Positions 7,409 through 20,910 of a stretch of DNA of 64,000 nucleotides are shown piece after piece (position 1 is the stretch's first letter; each line of letters starts with the position of its first letter). This DNA is from Riemerella columbina DSM 16469 (lineage in GTDB: Bacteria; Bacteroidota; Bacteroidia; Flavobacteriales; Weeksellaceae). A program made the translations under genes and the position numbers. The notes below the pieces were generated by a model. It saw only the letters and a program-made list of their open reading frames with translations. It was not told the origin of the DNA and searched no databases. The stretch lies in NCBI RefSeq assembly GCF_000374405.1, contig NZ_KB894283.1, positions 1 through 64,000 of the forward strand, written 5' to 3'.

Positions 7409-7981
7409 TTATTTGATATTATAAACTGCGTTGATGTCTTCTTCGCCACCTTTAGCGCTTCCAGCTTCGTTGCCATTGGCATCGGCTACACTTACAGATG
7501 CAGGTTTGTGGTGAAGTTTAATATTGACTTTAGCGCCATCTTTCGGTGCAGAATTTACAGTCCATTGGGTTTTAAGTCCAATTTTAGTCCCATCTTTTCT
7601 CGTGGTATTAGCATCGTCTGTTCTTTTGATATTAACGCTCACCTCAGCAAAACGATAAGTAAAGAAGTGGTCTTCTTTTTCCTCAATGATTTCTTCGGTA
7701 ACATTGTGGGTGTGGTCCTCGTGCGGCTCTTCTAGAGAAAGGGTAACATCATAAACATTTCCATTTTTTAGGATAATGTCTTTGCTGGCATCTTCTCCTT
7801 TAAATGTGGTCACTTGTACATCGTTAGCATCAGCTTTGTTGACGATAGTTGCCGTTAGATACTGTACTTCATCATGATTGTGAACATCTTCTGGAATTTT
7901 GTGGTCATCGCTTCTACAAGAGTTTAATGCGAAAACTGTAGCTAATGATAATGCGAATGGTTTTAAAAATGATAGTTTCAT
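7409..7981 (-). CDS. Histidine-rich lipoprotein, first cassette
   Basis: A 190-residue lipoprotein: the lipobox ends at Cys22 (ALNSC), followed by RSDD, so it probably stays attached to the outer membrane. The mature N-terminus (residues 25-38) and a later segment (EPHEDHTHN) carry clusters of His, Asp and Glu typical of metal binding. The remaining beta-rich sequence is not recognised. It lies 35 bases after the TonB-dependent receptor gene and is the last gene of a three-gene minus-strand unit. A role as metal-capturing partner of that receptor is inferred from context and composition only. A comparable lipoprotein occurs in the second cassette at 13958-14854, but the two are not obviously homologous along their length. 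Confidence 0.8.
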   Translation of the reverse strand: MKLSFLKPFALSLATVFALNSCRSDDHKIPEDVHNHDEVQYLTATIVNKADANDVQVTTFKGEDASKDIILKNGNVYDVTLSLEEPHEDHTHNVTEEIIEEKEDHFFTYRFAEVSVNIKRTDDANTTRKDGTKIGLKTQWTVNSAPKDGAKVNIKLHHKPASVSVADANGNEAGSAKGGEEDINAVYNIK

Positions 7982-8016
7982 AATGTTTGTGTTTTTTAAT
8001 TAGTTTAATGTTTGTT

Positions 8017-10380
8017 TTAAAAATGATAATTAATGGTAAGGGTTACATTTCTACCCAGTGCATCAGAGAAAAACCTTAGTCGATTAAGATAATCTCGATA
8101 AACGGTATTGAATAGATTGTGAACCCTTAGATTCAACTTAAGATGTTGGTTAAAAGCGATTCCTGTATTGAGGTTTACCAATTGATACCCCGCTGGTGGT
8201 GTACTTAAATCTAACCATTCTGTGCGTACGGTATTATTCTCGTAAACATCATAGGGAATAGCTCTTAAGGGAAATCTTTGTTGTTTAAATATAATTAAAT
8301 GCTCTACGCCGATATGCCAAGGGTTCTTAGTTTTAGATTGATAAGTCAATGTATTTTTTACCTGCATTGGTGGCATCAAAATTAAAGGTTCGTTGTGGGT
8401 GTCGTCTTGTCCGTAGACATAACTAAACGCTGCATTCCATTGCCATTGAGGATTTATTTTTGCAAAAGCCTCGGCATCTACACCCCACATTTTGGCTTTA
8501 ATTTGCTGATACTGCCATACAGGAAAATTCCCTTTAATGGTACTTTGCACACCATTAGGCGTTTGATTAATAAACGAATCCGACCATAAGATATAAGGAC
8601 TCACGCTGACCCCTAGTTTTTGATTATTAAAATCTAAATGTAATTGGGCTTGATAGGTGTTTTCCTTTTGTAAAGAAAGGTCGCCTTGTTCTATAATCGC
8701 TGCCGCATGGTGCAAGCCATCGGCGAAAAGTTCTGCCGCATTGGGCGTTCGGCTATTGTGTACGATATTCAACTTAGCATTGAGGTATTTCATCATTTGA
8801 TAATGAACTCCCACCGATGCCGAAATATTATGATAATACAACTGTGGATGGACTAAAGTTTTAACGCCTTTTTCTTCTAATACAAACTGAGGATAGCGAG
8901 AACTAAACTTTGCCCAGTCTTTATTGAGATAATATTTATACGCATCATAATAGTTGAAATCGTACCGAGCCCCGATTTCTGTATGCCATTTTCGTTGATG
9001 GTATTTTAAAATCGAGAACACGCCTGCTTCATACTTTTCGTAATCGGGAATTAATCGAGAACGCTCGGTTTTTGGGTCGGGATAGTTGACTTGATAACCA
9101 CCAGATACACCGCTTTCTAATGTCCAGCCTTGTCTTTGTAACAAATGTGTTAAACTAAGATTTTGGGTGGTCAATAGTAAATCCGTAGCGGGTTTTGGGT
9201 TGTAATGGCCTCTACGAATATCAAATTCATAGCGGTGATTTTGCTGATAAGCATATGCCAAACTGAATTTTCCCCAAGCGCCAAAGCGTTTATAGGCCTC
9301 AATTTTAGCCGTCTGATGGCTGACTTCTTGTTTAGGGTTTTCAATGTTATAACTGAAGTTTCCCGTATAGAACGCCAATCCATGATTGATGGCATCGGCA
9401 AAATTGCCTGCATTGCTGATGTGTGCCCCTTTATAGATTCCAAAATTTTGGTGGATTAGGCTGTATTTAGCACTTATGCCATATTCATATTCCTTTTTTT
9501 GGATGGCAATATGGAAGGCATTTTCTTCCGTTCCAGTATTTTGTAAACTATAATGTGGGGTTTGCAAATCGCCTAGCTTTTTGGCAGACCCTTGCGTCCG
9601 CACCGACCAACCATTTTGCCAGGTTTTTGCTACATCAGTATTTAGGGCTAATCCTTTACCATTACTAATTCCAGAAAGGCTAACTTTACCTATAATAGTA
9701 TCTTTTTTTGGATAGTTTGGCGATTCCAAAAGCACTGCGCCACCTATAGCATCGCCACCGTATTTTAAGGCTTCGGCACCTCTTACTAAGTCGATGTGTT
9801 CATAGGCGTTTGTATCTACATTAGGCGCGTGTTCTACACCCCATTCTTGTTCTGCCATTCGTACGCCATTATTCAAAACTAAAATTCTACTGCCATAGAG
9901 TCCATGGATAACAGGTTTAGAAATATTATTCCCCGTTTTCAGTGTATGAACCCCAGAAATATTGGATAATATATTCCCCAAATTTTCTGTCGTTTTTTCC
10001 TCTAATGCTGTTTTATCTAAAGTTTTAATGATTGCCGTACTTCGGTTTTGATGGAGTCCGTGTAATACTACGGTTTTTATCTCTTGGGTATGGTGTTCTA
10101 AATAGATATTGATGTGTAGCGATTGGGCTACACGAATGGTTTTAGTATAAGGCTGGCACTCACTATGGGTAACATGGATTTGGTATTGTCCTTCTTTTGC
10201 GGAAAAACTAAAAAATCCTTTAGTATTCGTGTGTGCGACTACTTTTCCATCAAGTTGAATGGTAGCATGGCTTAGTGCGGAATTGTCGTGTAAGTCTTTG
10301 ACTTGACCTTCCACACGATACTGCTGTGCGTAGAAACTATTACTCCATACGAGTAACAGACCTATCCAAAAAAGTTTCAT
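8017..10380 (-). CDS. TonB-dependent receptor, probable metal uptake, first cassette
   Basis: The start is taken at 10380, where a signal peptide begins (MKLFWIGLLLVW, cleavage near FYAQ); the open frame continues 17 residues upstream without one. The 787-residue product has a carboxypeptidase-regulatory-like beta domain (about residues 8-80), then a plug with LGNILSNISGVHT, PVIHGLYGSRILVLNNGVRM and the pattern EHAPNVD..AYEHIDLVRGAEALKYG, and a long beta-barrel that ends in an aromatic residue (NYHF). The plug wording resembles zinc receptors of the ZnuD type. The outer-membrane location and energy coupling by TonB-ExbBD follow from the family; zinc or another metal as substrate is inference, supported by His-rich neighbours. 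It is in one unit with the upstream small protein (69-base gap) and the downstream lipoprotein. Confidence 0.85.
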   Translation of the reverse strand: MKLFWIGLLLVWSNSFYAQQYRVEGQVKDLHDNSALSHATIQLDGKVVAHTNTKGFFSFSAKEGQYQIHVTHSECQPYTKTIRVAQSLHINIYLEHHTQEIKTVVLHGLHQNRSTAIIKTLDKTALEEKTTENLGNILSNISGVHTLKTGNNISKPVIHGLYGSRILVLNNGVRMAEQEWGVEHAPNVDTNAYEHIDLVRGAEALKYGGDAIGGAVLLESPNYPKKDTIIGKVSLSGISNGKGLALNTDVAKTWQNGWSVRTQGSAKKLGDLQTPHYSLQNTGTEENAFHIAIQKKEYEYGISAKYSLIHQNFGIYKGAHISNAGNFADAINHGLAFYTGNFSYNIENPKQEVSHQTAKIEAYKRFGAWGKFSLAYAYQQNHRYEFDIRRGHYNPKPATDLLLTTQNLSLTHLLQRQGWTLESGVSGGYQVNYPDPKTERSRLIPDYEKYEAGVFSILKYHQRKWHTEIGARYDFNYYDAYKYYLNKDWAKFSSRYPQFVLEEKGVKTLVHPQLYYHNISASVGVHYQMMKYLNAKLNIVHNSRTPNAAELFADGLHHAAAIIEQGDLSLQKENTYQAQLHLDFNNQKLGVSVSPYILWSDSFINQTPNGVQSTIKGNFPVWQYQQIKAKMWGVDAEAFAKINPQWQWNAAFSYVYGQDDTHNEPLILMPPMQVKNTLTYQSKTKNPWHIGVEHLIIFKQQRFPLRAIPYDVYENNTVRTEWLDLSTPPAGYQLVNLNTGIAFNQHLKLNLRVHNLFNTVYRDYLNRLRFFSDALGRNVTLTINYHF

Positions 10381-10449
10381 TGAATTAATATATAAAATGT
10401 TAAGAACCCTTGTCCTATTGAAATAGAACAATATAATTATTGAGTGATA

Positions 10450-10860
10450 TTAGGCTATCGTAGGTGGGGCTCTTAGCGAGAAATAGATTTTTTCTGATAC
10501 TAAATGTTCTAAAGTATAGGCATCAGAAATTTTATGATAAGCGACGACTTCTAAAGTATTGAATTCCGTTTTTTCAGGGATTAAAGAATGCCCAGTGGAA
10601 AAAAAGTGACAAATTAAACAGTCGTCTAATGTTTTAGATATTTGAGTCTTTACCGCGTGGGTATGGTCTTTAGTGTAAGATGCTAATTCTAAATTGTCAA
10701 TGCCACTATCGTGATGCTGGTGCAAAACACTAGACAATACCAACAGCAATGCATAGAAACTAGAAAGTACAATGCTCACCTGGTTTTTAATATGTCGTGT
10801 TTTACTAAACATCTGTGCAAAGGTAGAGAATGCATTTATAAAATCTAAATACTTTAACAT
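10450..10860 (-). CDS. Small histidine-rich membrane-associated protein, first cassette
   Basis: A 136-residue protein not assigned to a named family. A hydrophobic segment (VSIVLSSFYALLLVLSSVLH, about residues 28-47) is followed by HQHHD, then DHTHAVK, then CLICHFFSTGH, a Cys/His cluster that could bind metal, and an ending SLRAPP. The membrane segment would place the His/Cys part in the periplasm. The ATG at 10860 is the longest start; an internal ATG 16 residues on (MFSKTRHIKNQ) is equally plausible. First gene of the three-gene unit. The gene in the same place in the second cassette (17101-17481) has the same plan and the matching ending RGPP. Confidence 0.65.
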   Translation of the reverse strand: MLKYLDFINAFSTFAQMFSKTRHIKNQVSIVLSSFYALLLVLSSVLHQHHDSGIDNLELASYTKDHTHAVKTQISKTLDDCLICHFFSTGHSLIPEKTEFNTLEVVAYHKISDAYTLEHLVSEKIYFSLRAPPTIA

Positions 10861-10892
10861 TTTTTATAATTAAAGTAATGGGACGATTTATG

Positions 10893-10911
10893 TTCAAAGA
10901 TAATATTTGAA
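10893..10911. promoter_or_regulatory. Promoter -7 element overlapped by an operator-like inverted repeat
   Basis: TTCAAA (10893-10898) and TTTGAA (10906-10911) form a perfect inverted repeat with seven bases between them. On the minus strand TATCTTTG at 10902-10895 matches the -7 consensus TAnnTTTG for the first cassette, whose first start codon is at 10860. A repressor bound here would cover the promoter. Whether a metal regulator such as Zur or Fur uses it is unknown. Confidence 0.45.
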
Positions 10912-10954
10912 TGTGAAAATTCCGCACTTTATCAAAAATTAAGCCAATTTTTTT

Positions 10955-10962
10955 TACATTTG
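10955..10962 (+). promoter_or_regulatory. -7 element of the asnS promoter
   Basis: TACATTTG matches TAnnTTTG and ends 22 bases before the asnS start codon. The region 19 bases upstream has no TTTG. Confidence 0.55.
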
Positions 10963-10984
10963 CAGTTAGAGATTTTAAAATACA

Positions 10985-12433
10985 ATGGAAAAACAAACGA
11001 TAAAAGACATATTAAGCGATTACAAAAGTTTATTACATCATGATATTACCGTGCAAGGATGGGTAAGAGCTTTCCGTTCTAACCGATTTATTGCACTTAA
11101 TGATGGTTCTACAATTAACAACCTTCAAGTGGTGGTAGACTTTGAACAATTTGATGAAGATACCATTAAGAAAATTAATACCGCAGCTTCGCTAAAGGTA
11201 ACGGGCGAAGTTGTAGAAAGCCAAGGCGCAGGGCAGTCGGTAGAGATTGTGGCGAAGAAAATAGAATTATTAGGCGACCATTATTTTGATGAGCTGCAGT
11301 CAACGATTCTTCAGCCTAAAAAACACTCTTTAGAAAAATTAAGAGAGCAGGCACACCTTCGCTTTAGAACCAATTTATTTTCTGCCGTATTTAGAGTAAG
11401 AAGTGCGGTGAGTTTTGCGATTCATCAATTCTTTAATGAAAATCAATTCTATTATATCAATACACCCATTATCACAGGCGCCGATGCAGAAGGAGCAGGT
11501 GAGATGTTTGGGGTGAGCAATTTTGACCTTAACCATATTCCAAAGGATGAAAATGGTGCGGTAGATTATGCTCAAGATTTTTTTGGTAAAAAAACTAACC
11601 TTACCGTATCTGGTCAGCTAGAGGCAGAAACAGCGGCAATGGGCTTAGGTAGAGTGTACACTTTTGGACCAACATTCCGTGCGGAAAATTCTAATACTAC
11701 GCGCCACCTTGCTGAATTCTGGATGGTAGAGCCAGAAGTGGCTTTTAATAATTTGGATGATAATATTGATTTAGCAGAGCGTTTCTTAAAATATGTGATT
11801 CAATATGTGCTAGACCATTGTCAGGATGATTTGGCATTTTTGGATAAGCGTTTTGCAGACGAGCAAAAACAAAAACCAGAAAAAGATAGAGCGAAAGAAG
11901 GCTTAATAGAAAAGCTTGAAAATATTGTAAAAAAACGCTTTAAGCGCGTAAGTTATACCGAAGCGATAGAAATTTTGCTTCACTCTAAAGAAAATAAGAA
12001 AAAGAAATTCCAGTTTCCTGTAGAGGAGTGGGGCGCCGATTTACAATCGGAACACGAACGCTATTTAGTAGAAAAACACTTTGAGTGTCCAGTAGTATTA
12101 TTCGATTATCCAAAAGATATTAAAGCATTCTATATGCGTTTGAATGAAGATGGCAAAACAGTAGCGGCGATGGATGTACTATTCCCAGGTATTGGCGAAA
12201 TTATTGGAGGTTCGCAGAGAGAGGAGCGCCTAGATGTTCTAAAACAAAAAATGAACGAAATGAATGTAGATGAACACGAACTTTGGTGGTATATGGATAC
12301 CCGAAAGTTTGGTTCTGTACCGCACGCAGGCTTTGGCTTAGGCTTGGAACGCTTGGTACTTTTTGTAACGGGAATGACGAATATCCGCGATGTGATTCCT
12401 TTCCCTAGAACCCCTAAAAATGCAGAGTTCTAA
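10985..12433 (+). CDS. asnS: Asparaginyl-tRNA synthetase
   Basis: A 482-residue class II aminoacyl-tRNA synthetase that attaches asparagine to tRNA-Asn. The N-terminal OB-fold anticodon-binding domain covers roughly residues 15-105 ([21 protein letters not shown]). Class II motif 2 is seen as [21 protein letters not shown] and motif 3 as [16 protein letters not shown] followed by [12 protein letters not shown] at the C-terminus, the usual ending of this enzyme. The length is normal for bacteria. rpoN follows after three bases, so the two genes share a transcript. Transcribed away from the first metal-uptake-like cassette. Confidence 0.97.
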
Positions 12434-12436
12434 ATT

Positions 12437-13906
12437 ATGCTGAAACAAAACTTACAAATGAAATTGGGGCAAAAATTAGCCCCTCAACAAATACAACTGA
12501 TGAAACTCATCCAGTTGCACACCCTTGATTTTGAAAAAGAACTGGAGCGAGAATTGGAGGAAAATCCAGCCCTAGAAAAAGATGGGGACGAGGAAGCATC
12601 AGAGGATGATTATGCAGAAATTTCAGAATTAAATGATGAAGATTCGGAAACCATAGAAACGGATTTTGATGTAGACGAATATCTTTTTGACGATGAACCG
12701 TCTTATAAAACGGCATCTAGCAACTATTCCCCAGATGATGAGGAATTTGACCAGCAAAGTTTGCTTACCGAAGGACAAACCATCTACGATTATTTGATGG
12801 AACAAATTCACCTAAGACGCATTTCTGGGGACGATTTAAAAATTGCAGAATACATCATCGGTAACTTGGATAACGACGGCTACCTTCGTAGGGAAGTAAA
12901 ATCTTTGGTAGATGATTTGGCATTTTCTCAAGGAATTTACACTACGGAGGCGCATGTCTTAGATATTTTACTTAAAAGGGTTCAGAAGTTAGACCCGCCA
13001 GGGGTTGGGGCAAGAGATTTGCAAGAATGCTTATTGCTTCAAATTCGATTTAAGCTCAATACCAATCCTGATGAGTATACCGAACTGGCAGAGGAAATAT
13101 TAGAAACCCAATTTGATGCGCTGACGAATAAACATTACAAAAAGATAATGCAACGCCTCAGTTGTTCGGAAGAGGAACTGAAAGAGGCGATTGATGAAAT
13201 CAGCCACCTTTCCCCACGATTGGGCGGTAATTTTGATACGCAAACCATTACCATTAACCAAGAAATTATTCCAGATTTTACCATTCAGGTTAAGGATAAT
13301 AAGGTGATTCCATTACTCAATAGTAAAAATGCACCACAATTGCGAGTATCCAACGAATACCGCGATATTTTGGATACCTATTCCCAAGATAAAGATTCTA
13401 AAGAGCATAAAAAAGCGGCGTTATTCATTAAGCAAAAGTTGGATGCGGCTAAATGGTATATAGATGCCGTTAATCAAAGACAAAATACGCTGATGCAAAC
13501 CATTTCGGCGATTATTAAATTGCAACACGACTATTTCTTAACGGGCGACGATAAGTCTTTAAAGCCGATGATTCTAAAAGATGTAGCCGATATTACTGGG
13601 TTTGATATTTCTACCATTTCTCGTGTGGTAAAAAGTAAGTATGCGGATACTCCAAACGGAATTTTATTACTAAAGGATTTATTTTCGGATAGTTTGACCA
13701 ATGAAGATGGTGAGGAGGTGTCTACTAAAGAAATAAAAACTTACCTTCAAGAGGTGGTAGACAACGAAAATAAACGCAAACCTTATACCGATGATGCTTT
13801 GGTAAAAATTCTAAAAGAAAAAGGCTACAATATTGCCAGAAGAACTATTGCCAAATATAGAGACCAACTGAATATTCCAGTGGCAAGATTAAGGAAAGAG
13901 TTGTAA
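12437..13906 (+). CDS. rpoN: RNA polymerase sigma-54 factor
   Basis: A 489-residue sigma-54. Region I (residues 1-50) is rich in Gln and Leu (LGQKLAPQQIQLMKLIQL), region II is acidic (residues about 50-120), followed by the core-binding domain, a helix-turn-helix (ITGFDISTISRVVKSKYADTP) and the RpoN box ARRTIAKYR at residues 467-475, which contacts the -24 promoter element. Known role: directs polymerase to promoters opened by AAA+ activators. It starts three bases after asnS. The frame is intact and ends just before the hairpin at 13913-13949. No sigma-54 activator gene lies in this window. Confidence 0.97.
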   Translation: MLKQNLQMKLGQKLAPQQIQLMKLIQLHTLDFEKELERELEENPALEKDGDEEASEDDYAEISELNDEDSETIETDFDVDEYLFDDEPSYKTASSNYSPDDEEFDQQSLLTEGQTIYDYLMEQIHLRRISGDDLKIAEYIIGNLDNDGYLRREVKSLVDDLAFSQGIYTTEAHVLDILLKRVQKLDPPGVGARDLQECLLLQIRFKLNTNPDEYTELAEEILETQFDALTNKHYKKIMQRLSCSEEELKEAIDEISHLSPRLGGNFDTQTITINQEIIPDFTIQVKDNKVIPLLNSKNAPQLRVSNEYRDILDTYSQDKDSKEHKKAALFIKQKLDAAKWYIDAVNQRQNTLMQTISAIIKLQHDYFLTGDDKSLKPMILKDVADITGFDISTISRVVKSKYADTPNGILLLKDLFSDSLTNEDGEEVSTKEIKTYLQEVVDNENKRKPYTDDALVKILKEKGYNIARRTIAKYRDQLNIPVARLRKEL

Positions 13907-13912
13907 AAATTT

Positions 13913-13949
13913 AAAAAGCCAGTTCAATAAAATATTGAACTGGCTTTTT
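13913..13949. terminator. Bidirectional terminator between rpoN and second cassette
   Basis: A 17-base perfect stem, AAAAAGCCAGTTCAATA with its complement, and a three-base loop. A-run and T-run flank it, serving convergent rpoN and the lipoprotein gene at 13958. Confidence 0.92.
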
Positions 13950-13957
13950 GGTAGTAA

Positions 13958-14854
13958 TTACATCCAGTATTTACTACTATCATGAGGTGCGTCAAAGGAT
14001 TTATCCCAATCATCAAAGGCTTCATCATAAGAGATGTTAAATTCTTTAGCAATATCTTTTACTAAGTCTTCCGAAGTATAGCCTGTTGAATCCCCGCCTG
14101 GGTGTTCCCCATAGACTCTTACTGGGATTTTGATATTTAAATCCTGAACCCCTAATATTCTTTTGCTTGGGTTATAGAATGGATAAGGGTTACCATTATC
14201 GTCTAGTTTAGACCCTTTTATAACATGTACTAATACTACATTTAAGTCATATTGTAGATATTTTTCTTTAATAGTAAAGTACCCTTTTAAACCTATTGGA
14301 TCTTTCTCGTCTCTAAGTTGTCCACCGAATCTGAACATTTGATCCCAAGGATTGGTATCTCTATATAAATAGTCTAAAAGAGTATTGGTAGGTTTTTCTA
14401 CCCCTTTCCCTTCTAAAGTTTTAATGTTTTTAGCCATAAAAAAATGCTGGTGAATAGGTGCCATTTCTGCAGTTACAAATTCTCCATTGATAGCTTCTCC
14501 TTTTTTATTGTAATAAGTGATTTCTAAAGCATATTGTGTATCTTTTATAAAGCGAATAGGCTGGTCAGTACTTACTTTAAGATCACCTTTTTCATCTACC
14601 TCGTACGAGATTTCTTGTACCGATTTAAAGTATTTTATTTCTGGGTTAATCGGATCGCCATGGAAATTTTTCCCATGTAGATGTCCTTTTGTAAATTTAA
14701 AAGTAACTTTAGACCACTCTTCGTGTCCTTTATCGGTTACTTCATTTGTGGGCTTTATAGGATCGTCATCTCTATTACAAGATTGTAACCCTAATAAACT
14801 TAGTACAGTTAGTAGTACTACGAACAATTGGTTTAAAGAAATTAATCTTTTCAT
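13958..14854 (-). CDS. Histidine-containing lipoprotein, second cassette
   Basis: The start at 14854 is chosen because it gives a proper lipoprotein signal (lipobox ending GLQSC, Cys26); the frame extends 22 residues upstream over the receptor stop without a signal. The 298-residue product has His groups in KGHLHGKNFHGDP and PIHQHFF and a C-terminal EHPGGD segment. It is not assigned to a family. It starts 19 bases after the TonB-dependent receptor. Metal or metallophore capture at the outer membrane is inferred from the parallel with the first cassette (7409-10860). Confidence 0.8.
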   Translation of the reverse strand: MKRLISLNQLFVVLLTVLSLLGLQSCNRDDDPIKPTNEVTDKGHEEWSKVTFKFTKGHLHGKNFHGDPINPEIKYFKSVQEISYEVDEKGDLKVSTDQPIRFIKDTQYALEITYYNKKGEAINGEFVTAEMAPIHQHFFMAKNIKTLEGKGVEKPTNTLLDYLYRDTNPWDQMFRFGGQLRDEKDPIGLKGYFTIKEKYLQYDLNVVLVHVIKGSKLDDNGNPYPFYNPSKRILGVQDLNIKIPVRVYGEHPGGDSTGYTSEDLVKDIAKEFNISYDEAFDDWDKSFDAPHDSSKYWM

Positions 14855-14873
14855 AATGTAAAAATTTATAAAG

Positions 14874-16964
14874 TTAAAAATTAATGATTGTTTTAAATTG
14901 TATATCCAGTCCTTTACCATGTATAAAATAGCGGTAGTGATCGGTATAATTTTTATAAAGTTGATTCGTTAGATTATCTATTTTTAATAGAAAAAAGCAA
15001 GTATTCTTTTTATTATAATAAATTTCGGTACCTATATTTATTCCTAACAAATGGTATGCGTTTGGCGAATCTGTTACCAAATCTTGTTTCTTATCAAAAC
15101 GATTTTGTTTTGCTTGATAATAATGGCTTAGTGCTATATAGAGGTCTTTAGTTTTGTTATTTGGAATATTCCAAGTAAAATTTTGATTGATGGTTAATGG
15201 CGGAATCATAGGTAGATAGCCATTGGTTTTTGTATCATTAGCCATTACTAAAGATGCATTGGCTTCATATTTAATATTACGAATAGGCGTCCACTCTAGA
15301 GAAATATCTCCACCTCTAAAGTAAGCATTTGTTTGTTTAGTTTGAAATAGAGCTGCTGGTCCAGAAAATAATTGCTTATACTGTTTATTCGGTACATGAT
15401 AAATGTAATTTTTAATAGGTTGAATAAACACTGAAGCACCTATGCCGAAAGTTTCTGCTTTGTACTCTATTTTATTAGTGATTTTTAACCCTCTTTCTGA
15501 ATCCAGTTGCTGGTCACCTATATAATAAATAGGAAGCCCATGTTGTTTACCATTAACATATAATTCATAGGGTTCTGGACTCCTCCATGCCATACCTATA
15601 TCTGCAAAATACTGCCATTGATTATTAATTTGATATTTTACAGCGAGTTGATAAGAGGTATTGGTGAATTTTCTCCTACTTCCATATAATTGCCCTAGCC
15701 AATTGTACCCCAAAGCATTAGTAGTTCTATAATCATAGCGAGCTCCTAACGAGACTCCAAGTTTATTAGTTTGGTATTCTGAAATAAGGAATATACCATA
15801 ATTATGTAATTTATAGTTGGGAATGGAAGGAACAACACCAGTACCAGGCTTATTATAATTATTTTGATATTGGTACTGAATTCCAATTTTGGGACTAAAC
15901 CATTGGTAATGATGTGTCCATATTCCTTCGATAAAATGGGAGGTGAGTACCATATCTTGTGCAGGTATTTCGGTTCTATCCATTCTTCTAACCTCAAATT
16001 CTTTTCTTATATTCTTTTGGAAACTATATAAGAGTTCTATCTTATCATTAGTATTTATGTTCCATTCGTTATCTGATTTTACTACCCAATGTTCTACATT
16101 TTGTTTTGGTGCAGTAATTTGGCTTGAAAATGCCAGTGTTCTACTTGGGCGTCCTAATAAGATTCGATTTTCAAACTCTTCTATATTGCCAGTCAAGGCT
16201 CCATAGAACACTCCATTTTCCAAAGAAAATCGGTTGATAGATATTTGACTTTTGAATTGAGAAGATTTATATGCCAATGCCAAAGCGGTATTAAGTTGTT
16301 TTAAGCCCGTATTATTAACATAGTATTCTCTTGTTTTATAATCTCCAGCAGTATAATAACTTTGCTGTAAACGCCAAGCATAACGATTCTTAAATCCACC
16401 TTCTAGTGTAGCATTCATTTGTGTTTTATTGGCATTAGAACCACCAGATACTTCTGCACTACCACTAATAAATTTATGGTAAGTAAATGGCTTCGGTTCA
16501 AATAAGATAACACCACCCAGTGCCCCAGCACCATAGCGAACACTCTTAGCTCCTTTCAGGATTTTAATATTTTGAAAAGCCGAAACATCTACCTCTGTTG
16601 CATGCTGATCAGACCAATCTTGTCCCACTAATTTTACCCCATCAGTAAGGACTAAAATTCTATTATTTCTAAGCCCTTCTATAATTGGTTTAGACTGATG
16701 TGCGCCTACTTGTAATAAGTTGATGCCAGGTTGTGTAGATACTACATCTGCCAATGTACCACCCGTATATGTTTTTCTTTGTTTTAATTTAATTACAGAC
16801 TCTATTGAGCCTTTTTGTTTTATATGCACGGTATCTATCGCTACAGTTTTTCCATCTTTCGGTTGTGTTTGGGAGTAGTAAATACCAAAAGAGAAAAGGA
16901 AAAGATACACTAAAATTGTTTTAATGAAGTCCACCTTTTTGAATTTTTGTAAAACATTTAGCAC
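14874..16964 (-). CDS. TonB-dependent receptor, second cassette
   Basis: A 696-residue outer-membrane receptor with signal-like N-terminus (hydrophobic residues 14-30, then YYSQTQ). Unlike the first cassette's receptor it lacks the carboxypeptidase-like front domain. The plug contains TLADVVSTQPGINLLQVG, PIIEGLRNNRILVLTDGVKL and NIKILKGAKSVRYGAGALGGVI. The plug matches the first receptor in order and spacing of these words, with DQHATEVDVSA where the first has EHAPNVD, so they are paralogues. The barrel ends in IINF. Uptake substrate is not shown; a metal or metallophore is inferred. Confidence 0.85.
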   Translation of the reverse strand: MLNVLQKFKKVDFIKTILVYLFLFSFGIYYSQTQPKDGKTVAIDTVHIKQKGSIESVIKLKQRKTYTGGTLADVVSTQPGINLLQVGAHQSKPIIEGLRNNRILVLTDGVKLVGQDWSDQHATEVDVSAFQNIKILKGAKSVRYGAGALGGVILFEPKPFTYHKFISGSAEVSGGSNANKTQMNATLEGGFKNRYAWRLQQSYYTAGDYKTREYYVNNTGLKQLNTALALAYKSSQFKSQISINRFSLENGVFYGALTGNIEEFENRILLGRPSRTLAFSSQITAPKQNVEHWVVKSDNEWNINTNDKIELLYSFQKNIRKEFEVRRMDRTEIPAQDMVLTSHFIEGIWTHHYQWFSPKIGIQYQYQNNYNKPGTGVVPSIPNYKLHNYGIFLISEYQTNKLGVSLGARYDYRTTNALGYNWLGQLYGSRRKFTNTSYQLAVKYQINNQWQYFADIGMAWRSPEPYELYVNGKQHGLPIYYIGDQQLDSERGLKITNKIEYKAETFGIGASVFIQPIKNYIYHVPNKQYKQLFSGPAALFQTKQTNAYFRGGDISLEWTPIRNIKYEANASLVMANDTKTNGYLPMIPPLTINQNFTWNIPNNKTKDLYIALSHYYQAKQNRFDKKQDLVTDSPNAYHLLGINIGTEIYYNKKNTCFFLLKIDNLTNQLYKNYTDHYRYFIHGKGLDIQFKTIINF

Positions 16965-17100
16965 CTATTCTAAACATAGGAATAGACCTAAATTTATTGT
17001 AAAAGTCAACAATTGATTTTTAATGATTAAAATAAACTCCTCAATATCTTTTATTGATTAAATAAGATGATGAGAGTATAGATAATCATCACATTTTAGG

Positions 17101-17481
17101 TTATATGTGTTGAGAAAATTCAGGGGGACCCCTATAGTCTATTGATAAAGGTATCTTGTAAGTAATATTAAGCCATACTAAAGCATAATTAGTGTGTGGT
17201 TCAATATAATCTAATACTTGAAACTCTTGTGGGAGACTAAGGATATAAGGAGAAAAATAAAAATGATCCTTTTGATAGTTCCCTTTTTCAATATGAGAAT
17301 GATGATGGCAAATTCCTAAAGAACATTTATTCTCTTGGTTTATTTGATATTCTGTAGTCTCATGTCCTAATAAAATATCGCGAGTATAAGAGTAATTTTC
17401 GGAAAAGAAAGTTCTAATGAATACCGTGAAAAATAGTATCCAAACAAAAAATATCTTGTATTTTCTTTTACTGCGATTCAT
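17101..17481 (-). CDS. Small histidine-rich membrane-associated protein, second cassette
   Basis: A 126-residue protein with an N-terminal hydrophobic segment (FFVWILFFTVFIRTFF), then CSLGICHHHSHIEKG, another His at KDHF, and an ending YRGPPEF. Family unknown. The plan, one membrane segment followed by His/Cys motifs and a terminal R(A/G)PP, matches the product of 10450-10860. It precedes the receptor with a gap of 136 bases that shows only a short inverted repeat (CTATTC / GAATAG). Confidence 0.6.
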   Translation of the reverse strand: MNRSKRKYKIFFVWILFFTVFIRTFFSENYSYTRDILLGHETTEYQINQENKCSLGICHHHSHIEKGNYQKDHFYFSPYILSLPQEFQVLDYIEPHTNYALVWLNITYKIPLSIDYRGPPEFSQHI

Positions 17482-17491
17482 ATTCGTGGTA

Positions 17492-17499
17492 CAAATATA
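17492..17499 (-). promoter_or_regulatory. -7 element of the second cassette promoter
   Basis: Minus strand TATATTTG fits TAnnTTTG. The start codon at 17481 lies about 10 bases downstream, so the leader would be only a few bases long. No TTTG at the expected distance. Confidence 0.5.
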
Positions 17500-17640
17500 A
17501 GTGATTTTTTTATAATATCTAATATCACAACTGAAGGAATGGATGCAAAAGGACTGGTAAGTGTTTGTTTTTTTAGACTCCCCAAAGACCCAATATGAAT
17601 TAAATTATTTTCGTGTTCGTATTTGTTGTTACAGAAAAAC

Positions 17641-17949
17641 GATAACAAAGACGATAAGCCGGATTCTGTATCTATTAAAATAGGTGCCTGTTATTTATCT
17701 ACGCAAACCATTACTGATTTGTTCTAGCTGCTTACCCCTCGGCATTGGACGAGCCACCCTTAATTGCCGATATACTTAGCATTGCACCGCATAGAGTTTA
17801 CCGGATTTCACTACAGCCGAACTGTACTTGCTTTCTGTTGCACTGGTCCTCATATCACTATGGATGGCGGTTAGCCACTATGCTGCCCTATGGTGTCCGG
17901 ACTTTCCTCTTGATGCCTATGCACCAAGCAACAGGCTGTCTTTGTTATC
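17641..17949 (-). ncRNA. rnpB: RNase P RNA
   Basis: On the minus strand the gene contains GAGGAAAGTCCGGACACC (17909-17892), the conserved core of bacterial RNase P RNA, and ends with AGAATCCGGCTTAT. The two ends pair perfectly over 12 bases (GATAACAAAGAC at 17949-17938 in the RNA sense with GTCTTTGTTATC at 17652-17641), which is helix P1. About 309 bases in all, a normal size. It is the catalytic RNA that trims the 5' ends of tRNA precursors. The start fits a TATCTTTG promoter element at 17961-17954. A plus-strand open frame across it (17745-18026) is not a gene. Confidence 0.95.
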
Positions 17950-18090: not shown

Positions 18091-20910
18091 ATGAAGAAAT
18101 TAGTTTGTTCTATTTTGCTGTGCGCATCGGTATGGCTCTCTGCCCAAACGGGAACGCTATCGGGGAATATTAACGATAATTCTAAAATTGCACTTCCTGG
18201 TGCAAAACTCATCCTAAAACCGGGTAATCACTACACAGCATCAGATGAAAATGGGGATTTTGTATTTCTGAATGTTCCAACTGGAGATTACGAATTGGTT
18301 GCCGACTACTTGGGGTATGGGGGTAAAACATTTAAAGTGCATATTAGCGATAATAAAAATACGCATCAGTTGATTGTATTTAATGAAAAACTAACTTCAA
18401 AAGAAAAGGTTAAAAATATAAAAAAAGTCCAAATTATAGGTTTTTCTAGACAAAGCCAAGCAAGAGCACTTAGTAAACAAAAAAGTAATGCCAATATCTC
18501 GAATGTGGTATCTTCCGACCAAGTGGGGAAGTTTCCAGATGCTAATATAGGTGACGCACTAAAAAGAGTGCCAGGGATTACCATGCAAAATGACCAAGGT
18601 GAAGCTAGAAATATCATCGTAAGAGGACTATCCCCAGAACTAAATTCGGTAACGCTGAATGGTAGCCGTATTCCTTCTGCAGAAGGGGATAACAGGAATG
18701 TGCAAATGGATTTAATCCCTTCGGATATGATTCAGATGATAGAGGTAAATAAAACCCTTACGCCTGACCAAGATGCTGATGCGATTGGTGGTTCTGTGGA
18801 CTTAATTACCAAATCAGCGTCTAGTAAAGAACGAATTTCTATATCTACCGCATCAGGATATAATCCTATTCGTAGTAAGGCCTTGTTTACAAATAGTTTT
18901 TTGTATAGCAATCGTTTTTTTAACCATAGCCTAGGTTGGGTCATTAATGGCTCTTATAATAACAATACTTATGGTTCGGATAATGTGGAAGCACAGTGGA
19001 CAAGCAAAAAAGGTAGAGAATATATTTCAGAATTAGATATTAGAAAATACGATGTAAAAAGAGAACGCAAAAGCATCGGTACAGATATCGATTGGAAACC
19101 GAATAATAGAAATAGTTTGAGGATTTCTGCGATGTACAATTGGAGAGACGATTGGGAAAATCGTTATCGTGTGAGAATGAAAAAAATTGCACCCACCAAA
19201 AATGGATATGAAGGCAGAATAGAGCGACAAACCAAAGGCGGTATCGCTAATAATAAAAATAAAGGCGCGAGGTTAGAAAGGCAAATCATGCAGAACTACT
19301 CCATTAAAGGAGAACATCTATTCGGAAGCAAGGTAGAGCTTAATTGGAATGCCTCTTATTCTAAAGCAGAAGAACAACGCCCTAACGAACGCTATATTTC
19401 GTTCTATACAGATAAGAAAAACCTTATTGAATTTGATTCGGATTTTGGTACAGAACGAGAGCCACTGTATACTCCAACCTTGATACCAGATTTAAATCAA
19501 TACAAATGGGATAAACTTTCCGAAGAAAACAAAATGACTTTTGAAGAAGAAATTACGGGTAAGTTTAACCTAAGAATGCCATTTTCTATTGTTTCTGGTG
19601 AGAAAGGAAGACTAAGAATAGGAGGAAAGACCAGACTAAAATTTAAAAAACGAGATAATAATTTCTTCGACTATAAACCTACAGCATCCAATCCTATCTC
19701 GGATTTATCGGTGGTGGATAAGATATTTTGGAGTGGAAGCCACTGGCAGCCAGGTACTAAATATGAGCCTGGATATTTTGCTTCAAAGGATTATTTAGGA
19801 CAATTGGATCTCGAAAATGCAACGCTTTTTGATAAGAAAGATCAGCCGTCCAAATATTTATCTGCTAACTATCGTGCAAAAGAAGATATCTACGCTGGGT
19901 ATATAAGATGGGATCAAAATCTATCGCGTAATTTTTCTTTTATTACAGGACTTAGAATAGAAAATACACAAACCAATTATTTGGGGAATGTTATTCAAGA
20001 TGAAGATAATCTGCAAGGCAGTCGAGAAATTACAAATAACTATACTAACTATTTGCCAAATATCAGTTTTAAATATACGCCAGAACGCTATACTGTTATT
20101 AGACTTGCCTATACCACTGCTATTGCCAGACCCAATTACTATCGCCTTTCGCCGTTTGTAAGCGTAATTCCTGGGGATAGAGATATTACAGCAGGAAATC
20201 CTAATTTGAAATCTTCTTATGCCCATAATTATGATGTGATGGCAGAATATTACTTTAAATCTGTAGGGTTAATTTCATTAGGTGGATTCTATAAGAAAAT
20301 TAATAATTTCATCTACGATTATAGAGACCCTCAATATACTTATGATAAATTTCAAAATGATTTTCCAGATTTAAAAAATCAATTAGATCCTAATGAAACC
20401 TACACCTATCTACAAGCCAAAAATGGTGAAAGTGTTGCGGTCTATGGATTTGAAGCGGCATTCCAAAGACAGCTAGATTTTCTACCAGGGTTTCTATCCA
20501 ATTTTGGTATTTACGCCAACTACACTTATACCCAATCTAAAACCAAAGGAATCTACACCTCAGATGGCATAATGCGTGAAGATCTTATGCTACCGGGAAC
20601 AGCACCCAATATGTTCAATGCATCACTATCTTGGGAAAATAAAGTATTCCAAGCCAGAGTTTCTCTCAATCATACTTCTGCGTACCTTGATGAGTTAGGC
20701 GATAATGAGTTTAATGACCGCTATTACGATAAGCAAACATTTGTAGATGCCAACGCGTCTTATGCCGTTAATGATTGGATGCGTATATTTGTAGAAGCAA
20801 ACAACCTTACCAATCAACCGTTGAGGTATTACCAAGGTGTAGAAAGCAGAACCATGCAAATTGAATATTATAGACCACGCTATACGATGGGAGTTAAGTT
20901 TGATTTTTAA
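18091..20910 (+). CDS. TonB-dependent receptor linked to phytase
   Basis: A 939-residue outer-membrane receptor. Signal peptide residues 1-19 (cleaved after LSA), carboxypeptidase-like beta domain about 20-95, then a spacer rich in Lys and the plug: SDQVGKFPDANIGDALKRVPG, GLSPELNSVTLNG and DADAIGGSVDLITKSA. This wording is that of the TonB receptor group TIGR01782 known from Xanthomonas and Caulobacter. The barrel ends with MGVKFDF. A phytase gene follows 57 bases later in the same direction, so uptake of an inositol phosphate or another phosphorus-containing nutrient is inferred. The promoter would give an almost leaderless message. Confidence 0.88.
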   Translation: MKKLVCSILLCASVWLSAQTGTLSGNINDNSKIALPGAKLILKPGNHYTASDENGDFVFLNVPTGDYELVADYLGYGGKTFKVHISDNKNTHQLIVFNEKLTSKEKVKNIKKVQIIGFSRQSQARALSKQKSNANISNVVSSDQVGKFPDANIGDALKRVPGITMQNDQGEARNIIVRGLSPELNSVTLNGSRIPSAEGDNRNVQMDLIPSDMIQMIEVNKTLTPDQDADAIGGSVDLITKSASSKERISISTASGYNPIRSKALFTNSFLYSNRFFNHSLGWVINGSYNNNTYGSDNVEAQWTSKKGREYISELDIRKYDVKRERKSIGTDIDWKPNNRNSLRISAMYNWRDDWENRYRVRMKKIAPTKNGYEGRIERQTKGGIANNKNKGARLERQIMQNYSIKGEHLFGSKVELNWNASYSKAEEQRPNERYISFYTDKKNLIEFDSDFGTEREPLYTPTLIPDLNQYKWDKLSEENKMTFEEEITGKFNLRMPFSIVSGEKGRLRIGGKTRLKFKKRDNNFFDYKPTASNPISDLSVVDKIFWSGSHWQPGTKYEPGYFASKDYLGQLDLENATLFDKKDQPSKYLSANYRAKEDIYAGYIRWDQNLSRNFSFITGLRIENTQTNYLGNVIQDEDNLQGSREITNNYTNYLPNISFKYTPERYTVIRLAYTTAIARPNYYRLSPFVSVIPGDRDITAGNPNLKSSYAHNYDVMAEYYFKSVGLISLGGFYKKINNFIYDYRDPQYTYDKFQNDFPDLKNQLDPNETYTYLQAKNGESVAVYGFEAAFQRQLDFLPGFLSNFGIYANYTYTQSKTKGIYTSDGIMREDLMLPGTAPNMFNASLSWENKVFQARVSLNHTSAYLDELGDNEFNDRYYDKQTFVDANASYAVNDWMRIFVEANNLTNQPLRYYQGVESRTMQIEYYRPRYTMGVKFDF

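Follow-up and report, generated by a model that had tools for sequence, protein, structure and literature searches.

What does a small exported protein carrying histidines and cysteines do at the head of an operon for a TonB-dependent receptor? The question arises twice in the DNA analyzed here, positions 1 to 64,000 of contig NZ_KB894283.1 from the 2.44-Mb genome of Riemerella columbina DSM 16469 (the window, 64,000 nucleotides), where two trios on the minus strand, at 7409-10860 (cassette A) and 13958-17481 (cassette B), share the gene order small exported protein, TonB-dependent receptor, lipoprotein. A preliminary description of the window had counted the small proteins among the components of metal uptake. 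We find that they are better read as regulators: judged from their sequences, they are probably leaders of the CruR/CutF (DUF2946-like) kind, arrest peptides that sense metal, and not uptake components. The motifs and their spacing, the position in the operon, the position of the promoter box, the RNA complementarity in relatives, and the relationships of the receptors and of the lipoproteins were all computed directly.

Motifs, spacing and promoter box of the small proteins

The two putative leaders, encoded by upstream open reading frames (ORFs), and the boxes ahead of them are located as follows.

10450..10812, minus strand: leader A, 120 aa, ORF open from 10860 (ORF and alignment)
10818..10825, minus strand: TAnnTTTG (-7-type) box TACCTTTG, 5 nt upstream of the leader A ATG (read from sequence)
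17101..17481, minus strand: leader B, 126 aa (ORF and alignment)
17492..17499, minus strand: TAnnTTTG box TATATTTG, 10 nt upstream of the leader B ATG (read from sequence)

Leader A combines an N-terminal hydrophobic helix with H31, H33 and H34, the motif C65-x2-C68-H69, and RAPP at residues 114-117, with 3 residues beyond PP and a gap of 45 residues from C68 to R114. Leader B carries C53-x4-C58-HHH and RGPP at residues 117-120, with 6 residues beyond PP and a gap of 58 from C58 to R117. The R(A/G)PP end that the preliminary description had noted is indeed specific to these proteins: of the 132 window ORFs of at least 60 aa, 2 have R[AG]PP no more than 8 residues from the C-terminus, and they are exactly the two leaders. 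The same elements recur in an alignment of 34 sequences (N-terminal hydrophobic helix, HxH, (D)CxxCH, C-terminal RxPP), in which C65, R114, P116 and P117 are invariant and the HxH and the second Cys nearly so. In 120 cassettes, a set chosen for an R[AGSP]PP ending, the endings are RGPP (99), RAPP (18) and RPPP (3), with 2-6 residues beyond PP. CxxC is present in 95 of the 120, and its distance to the R is 45 residues in 71 of these 95 and 43-46 in 93 of them. Reducing the set to 55 non-redundant cassettes (<50% identity) leaves 34 with CxxC, of which 32 have a spacing of 43-46.

CruR, the DUF2946 leader of a TonB-transporter operon that senses copper via CXXC, is described as requiring RAPP three residues from its end, and its two motifs lie 45 residues apart (PMC9426467). 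A CXXC and a C-terminal RAPP about 45 residues apart are found in leader A and missing from leader B, and both gene order and the promoter box ahead place the leader first in a metal-homeostasis operon. The identification as putative arrest leaders rests chiefly on agreement with CruR in four respects, namely motif, spacing, position and operon partner. The window proteins were also tried as members of a curated family, which was rejected because no Pfam or NCBIfam model matched them over its cut-off; weak model matches among the 34 aligned members were to CzcI (9/34, best 0.0025) and LIC10965 (7/34, best 0.0013). Compared directly with hhalign, leaders A and B align over 34 columns around the Cys region only (probability 40%), and their kinship, as far as sequence comparison goes, rests on the joint alignment and the common context.

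In 90 of the 120 cassettes a TAnnTTTG box, which we take to be the Bacteroidota -7 element, lies no more than 45 nt from where the leader is predicted to start; in 62 of the 120 it ends 4-5 nt before the ATG, and it is kept in all five Riemerella A cassettes. No such box was found within 45 nt before the receptor start in any of the 116 cassettes with a gap of at least 45 nt. Judged by this placement, a separate promoter for the receptor seems to be absent, and since the box often ends 4-5 nt before the leader ATG, the leader mRNA may start almost at that codon. Aligning the upstream regions of five A and five B leaders for operators brought out only the -7-type box as distinct; Fur and Zur sites were not tested in this comparison.

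Complementarity between leader tail and receptor start

We defined the leader tail as the segment from the last Pro codon to 12 nt beyond the stop, and a start-codon helix as a perfect Watson-Crick helix of at least 7 bp between this tail and the receptor start region. Start-codon helices were found in 47 of the 120 cassettes. The corresponding figures are 3 of 166 for control gene pairs, 7.6% for shuffled sequences and 21% when leaders and receptors were mismatched. Among the 55 non-redundant cassettes, 11 have the helix, compared with 197 of 2,970 mismatched pairs (P = 0.001) and with 3 of the 166 controls (P = 1.9 × 10−5), in Fisher tests that treat loci as independent. When the 30 nt before the RxPP codons were used instead of the tail, a helix was found in 1 of the same 55. 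The paired sequences vary between loci yet stay matched, as illustrated by ATTTATGCG with CGCATAAAT in locus L210 and AACAAAATG with CATTTTGTT in L131.

Cassette A has a different predicted pairing, which involves the RAPP codons themselves.

10467..10475, minus strand: 5' arm over the RAPP codons, forming a 9-bp helix (one G-U) with 10401-10409 (RNAfold/RNAduplex)
10401..10409, minus strand: 3' arm GGGTTCTTA, ending 21 nt upstream of the receptor A ATG (RNAfold/RNAduplex)
10410..10431, minus strand: hairpin in the gap between leader A and receptor A (folding and Riemerella alignment)

This RAPP-codon helix has a z of -3.2, with 5 of 1,000 shuffles equally strong (RNAfold/RNAduplex), and a matched change occurs in one relative (L020). 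The hairpin occurs in four of the five Riemerella A cassettes; its 5' arm is deleted in L022.

Gene neighbours, receptors and lipoproteins

Within Riemerella (six genomes), leader A was found in 5 and leader B in all 6 by profile and in 5 by single sequence. In a family sample of 197 genomes from 33 genera, the small-A profile matched 129 genomes, that of lipoprotein A 144 and that of lipoprotein B 17; a narrow small-B profile matched 7, the six Riemerella genomes and one weak match containing stops. The parallel same-strand trios of the preliminary description are present in the window, and across the 197 genomes 113 of 133 small-A matches have a same-strand lipoprotein-A match downstream, at a gap of 2472-3188 nt. 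Nine of the 20 unpaired small-A loci were fetched, and in 8 a receptor comes next (as two ORFs in L130), the weak match L138 having none; of the 34 unpaired lipoprotein-A loci 12 were fetched, and 11 have both a receptor and a small RxPP gene ahead of them, with no RxPP gene found in the remaining one (L140). All nine lipoprotein-B loci outside the genus (L121-L129) have a receptor-sized gene of 679-775 aa just upstream, and 5 of the 9 have an RxPP gene; the other 4 have the receptor and no RxPP gene. Leader, receptor and lipoprotein B also occur together in a Capnocytophaga locus (L233), where one gene separates the receptor from the lipoprotein. In two of the nine loci, L121 (2291-2692) and L122 (4750-5151), both from one genus of the family, a Cys/His-rich 133-aa ORF with CHKCHH stands in the place of the RxPP leader, immediately ahead of receptor and lipoprotein B; by sequence it looks like a transposase-type zinc-ribbon protein.

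A broad profile of the small proteins matched 52 of 395 phylum genomes and 25 of 171 genera. In 40 phylum loci that were fetched, none of them within the family, profiles typed the next genes as a receptor (24), a ZnuA operon (5), an outer-membrane efflux protein of the OEP family (2) or none of these (9). Two of the nine untyped loci (L193, L207) hold Pfam-confirmed receptors and two (L206, L212) end at a contig end; Pfam also identified ZnuA with ABC parts in L198, ZnuA in L211, and OEP, HlyD and ACR_tran in L224. Since its neighbours include receptors, ZnuA and efflux genes, the small gene tracks metal genes rather than receptors as such. The preliminary description had named small-protein or lipoprotein homologues without receptors as what would count against it: small-protein relatives of this kind do occur (the 5 ZnuA and 2 efflux loci), still beside metal genes, and on the lipoprotein side the four receptor-bearing loci described above lack the RxPP gene. 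The genome of the window has 28 matches to the receptor plug and only 3 to the leader, namely the two cassette leaders and a broken relative of leader B (L028) at 9257-9613 of contig C36, near the end of this 10-kb contig, which has one in-frame stop and encodes RGPP beyond it.

Other arrangements were seen in the phylum. In L193, L194, L195, L213 and L222, genes for an ABC ATPase, a receptor-sized protein and an ABC-2/DUF3526 permease of about 482 aa come after an RxPP leader, with Pfam typing for L193 alone; this is possibly a receptor-plus-ABC metal system. In L197, L201, L202, L203 and L217, a lipoprotein-like gene of 155-171 aa, which is an EEHFE lipoprotein in L197 and L203, lies between the leader and a receptor with a ZnuD-like SPDHA motif. 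The literal SPDHA plug motif in these five phylum loci is all that was used of a rough scan for receptor ligand motifs (plug 49/67, barrel 42/67), which hit some wrong places.

The receptors and lipoproteins of the window are as follows, with starts taken as likely from alignment (10812 for the small protein A, 10380 for receptor A, GTG at 16934 for receptor B and 14854 for lipoprotein B).

8017..10380, minus strand: receptor A, a ZnuD-like TonB-dependent receptor with CarbopepD_reg_2, plug and barrel (Pfam, solved-relative search)
7409..7981, minus strand: lipoprotein A, 190 aa, HNHDE motif (ORF, alignment, model)
14874..16934, minus strand: receptor B, plug and barrel, likely GTG start 16934, ORF open from 16964 (Pfam, alignment)
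13958..14854, minus strand: lipoprotein B, 298 aa, GHLHG..FHG and HQHFF motifs (ORF, alignment, model)

The receptors, both with plug and barrel domains, are related, as had been proposed, with 27% identity over 705 columns (E = 2 × 10−70), and the front carboxypeptidase-like domain attributed to only one of them is confirmed by Pfam for receptor A alone. For both, the nearest solved relative is the zinc transporter ZnuD, followed by the copper transporter OprC; solved haem receptors rank below these two for receptor B and are not listed for receptor A. The proposal of metal uptake is supported by these relatives and by the ZnuA and RND neighbours, although the first NCBIfam model is one for haem or haemoglobin receptors, below its cut-off. 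The zinc ligands of ZnuD are Asp99, His100, Glu340 and His499 (PMC4557270). By comparison with the Neisseria meningitidis structure (PDB 4rdr; with a residue offset, 14, counted manually), His100 has an equivalent in both receptors, Asp99 aligns with Glu in A and Gln in B, Glu340 is not aligned in either, and His499 corresponds to a His in A and to a His one residue off in B. The cut-off of the ZnuD model NF038289 (950 bits) was not reached by receptor A (115.9) or receptor B (65.5).

The lipoproteins had been said to share composition only. This does not hold: hhalign relates the two families with 97.4% probability, and their mature domains alone with 70.7% (E = 3.8 × 10−5), against at most 0.8% in 20 column-shuffled controls, though only 20% is reached with five genus sequences each. 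By these profile comparisons, we regard lipoproteins A and B as distant homologues. As a family trait, their description as His-bearing applies to B, which retains GHxHG..FH, HQHFF and many histidines, whereas the His richness of A is not conserved (9 listed relatives have 2-4 His, and only two His are invariant); family A takes two forms, one bearing HEHD or HNHD and a PQEE type with few His. Most lipoprotein rows have an acidic stretch after the lipid Cys, which we take to fit a surface-export signal. Models of the two (mean pLDDT 86.6 for A and 77.7 for B) are mostly beta-stranded. Foldseek gave no match at E ≤ 0.001 for either; the best matches from VIA-align, with Z 7.0 for A (rmsd 2.7, 94 aligned) and Z 6.0 for B (rmsd 3.9, 109 aligned), may reflect merely a shared beta-sandwich in these models. 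A profile search of solved sequences yielded no credible relative, and the HmuY family of Pfam did not match the window lipoproteins to E 10.

Between the cassettes, Pfam identifies a class II tRNA-synthetase gene, which we take to be the asnS of the preliminary description, and a sigma-54 gene. The flanking of asnS-rpoN exists locally in the window; the cassettes lie about 130-840 kb apart in the 4 other Riemerella genomes that have both, and the arrangement is therefore incidental. A trigger-factor gene (Pfam) lies directly downstream of lipoprotein A in the window and within about 2 kb downstream in 3 of 4 other A loci. Just upstream of leader B lies a class A RNase P RNA (RF00010, 221.8 bits; 17639-17947, minus strand), the sole Rfam match at gathering thresholds when known RNA elements were sought for the gaps. 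Farther on, a phytase-family protein (PF02333; 20968-21999, plus strand) comes after a large TonB receptor at 18091-20910.

Proposed regulation, its alternatives and known systems

Each cassette would form one transcription unit for regulated metal uptake, in which the upstream ORF encodes a leader that acts while being synthesized. During export, the leader's His and Cys residues would probe the metal supply beyond the inner membrane. Under metal scarcity, the ribosome would arrest on the C-terminal R(A/G)PP and, by covering the last codons and stop of the leader, would block the pairing mRNA structure, so that the receptor is expressed; when metal is bound, arrest would be relieved, the ribosome would leave, and the inhibitory pairing would form, turning off receptor and lipoprotein (the sign seen with CruR). 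In many relatives the inhibitory pairing would cover the receptor start codon directly, and in cassette A the helix on the RAPP codons may serve similarly; that start-codon occlusion is the main output in relatives is a suggestion we make tentatively. The receptor would be a ZnuD-like importer, and the lipoprotein would capture metal or a metal chelate for it. We infer arrest, the identity of the metal, the sign of regulation, and the surface position and function of the lipoproteins. Zinc is the likeliest metal for cassette A, by a somewhat better than even judgement, with copper possible, and for cassette B zinc is a candidate that falls a little short of even. The two cassettes may have different substrates, as the preliminary description suggested: the sensor cysteines (CxxC and Cx4C), the receptor ligands and the sets of lipoprotein histidines all differ.

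Several results weigh against identifying the small proteins as arrest leaders. The start-codon helix is lacking in the window's own two cassettes, where the longest pairings are 3 and 4 bp, and the RxPP-codon helix of cassette B depends on the receptor start chosen (z -3.7 with 16964, z -0.8 with 16934). As a family rule, RxPP-codon pairing was rejected (mean z -0.21, n = 104), and so was folding of the gap as evidence (mean z -2.19, n = 104, compared with -2.50 in 110 control gaps). Pfam DUF2946 (PF11162) does not match the window leaders to E 10, and a separate search with leader A gave nothing to E 1; the model touches 3 of the 34 relatives weakly (best E 0.035), and within the genome of the window its highest-ranking match (E 0.039, below cut-off) lies elsewhere than the leaders. 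Leader B of Riemerella departs from the pattern in its cysteine pair and spacing, and its tail is the longest of the set. CxxC is retained by several B-type relatives outside Riemerella in the alignment, and leader B has drifted; on sequence grounds, the identification is strong for A and weaker for B. The distribution is patchy, with 343 of 395 phylum genomes lacking a match, and the C-terminal motif of CutF alone is reported to cause no arrest in a fusion test (PMC9973294). Finally, the top NCBIfam model for both receptors is TIGR01785 (TonB-hemin), below its cut-off, narrowly ahead of ZnuD for receptor A (E 2e-35 vs 2e-33) and widely for receptor B (2e-36 vs 4e-18).

This last result would favour haem import by the receptors with the lipoproteins as haemophores, and Riemerella is described as having haem receptors with a haem-binding partner (PMC10986502); however, the ranking of solved relatives speaks for ZnuD and OprC, and ZnuD itself was once misannotated as a haem transporter owing to shared motifs (PMC4557270), so that we consider haem import improbable. 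Alternatively, the small protein could be stable and serve as a periplasmic metal chaperone or as a membrane partner, passing metal from the receptor to inner-membrane importers, with R(A/G)PP as a folding or docking motif. The conserved HxH and CxxCH could bind metal, the N-terminal helix could be a membrane anchor, and metal-transport genes always adjoin where the neighbours can be typed. A chaperone, however, leaves unexplained why RxPP lies 2-6 residues before the stop, why the spacing is 43-46 and why the last codons are complementary to the next start codon; moreover, RAPP and RGPP are reported to support ribosome arrest in varied contexts, to be avoided in proteomes and to precede TonB-related genes across Gram-negative bacteria (PMC12992588). 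This explanation is likewise unlikely in our view.

Granting an arrest peptide, the metal could be copper, with receptors that import it, as an appreciable minority of our expectation. The described CruR/CutF-type leaders sense copper (PMC9426467, PMC9973294), CxxC is a recognized Cu-binding motif (PMC9426467) and OprC comes second among the solved relatives of each receptor, whereas the HxH beside CxxCH, the ZnuA operons at 5 of 40 phylum loci, the His100 and His499 equivalents in receptor A and the reported absence of Cu-related R(A/G)PP leaders from Bacteroidota (PMC12992588) point away from copper. Least likely of all, the leader would monitor secretion in general or act as a structural spacer, and control would be exerted only at the promoter by Fur or Zur; Sec-related arrest peptides do have RAPP/RGPP in common (PMC10987492) and a promoter box does lie upstream of the leader, but the conserved metal-type residues and the metal-gene neighbours speak against it. 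Additional promoter control alongside the leader is possible.

Bacteroidota mostly lack Shine-Dalgarno signals. As a tentative and less than even proposition, this phylum may have a widespread, near-leaderless, zinc-responsive arrest peptide whose stalled ribosome frees the receptor start codon from a helix with the leader tail, together with a new family of receptor-linked lipoproteins. If the regulation proposed for the cassettes is right, a testable logic of control and a likely class of substrate could be assigned to many unnamed receptor operons of flavobacteria and their relatives, receptors labelled haem by profiles could be re-assigned, and the start-codon helix would offer a means to read the mechanism from sequence alone. 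In the published texts consulted, supplements not covered, we found no description of a Bacteroidota form that combines HxH, a lipoprotein partner and the start-codon helix, and published zinc and iron studies of Riemerella, as far as their text was available, could not be mapped onto the window genes.

CzcI of Cupriavidus metallidurans pMOL30 ranks first of 914 ORFs from three pMOL30 stretches by the small-protein profile (E 0.0013, the next 2.2). It is likewise small and exported, has a His cluster and DCxxCH and heads a metal operon; it differs in its C-terminus (RAPDRP, not RxPP), in belonging to an efflux operon and in a direct hhalign match of only 12 columns (16.5%). The closest described system is CruR (BP2923) of Bordetella pertussis, where, as here, an exported leader is the first of three genes (cruR-bfrG-bp2921) and a TonB transporter the second; leader A shares with it the Cys pair, RAPP three residues from the end and the 45-residue gap, whereas the third gene there encodes a PepSY_TM protein rather than a lipoprotein (PMC9426467). 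CruR works via Rho and copper (PMC9426467). The window-type leaders have the HxH in addition and fall under the Pfam threshold for DUF2946. CutF of Rhodobacter capsulatus (cutFOG) is also exported, with a Cys motif and a proline-rich end, and an mRNA structure masks the initiation site of the next gene, a possible likeness to the cassette relatives; there, however, a stem-loop in the gap shields the Shine-Dalgarno sequence, whereas for many of the cassette relatives pairing is predicted between the start codon and the tail of the leader itself, and the sign is opposite to that proposed here, copper prolonging stalling and turning cutO on (PMC9973294). CutF-like proteins are reported as 55% Pseudomonadota and 40% Bacteroidota after normalization (76% and 19% raw; PMC9973294). 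Taken together, these comparisons place the putative leaders in a kind known from Proteobacteria, to which the start-codon helix and the lipoprotein partner appear to be new additions.

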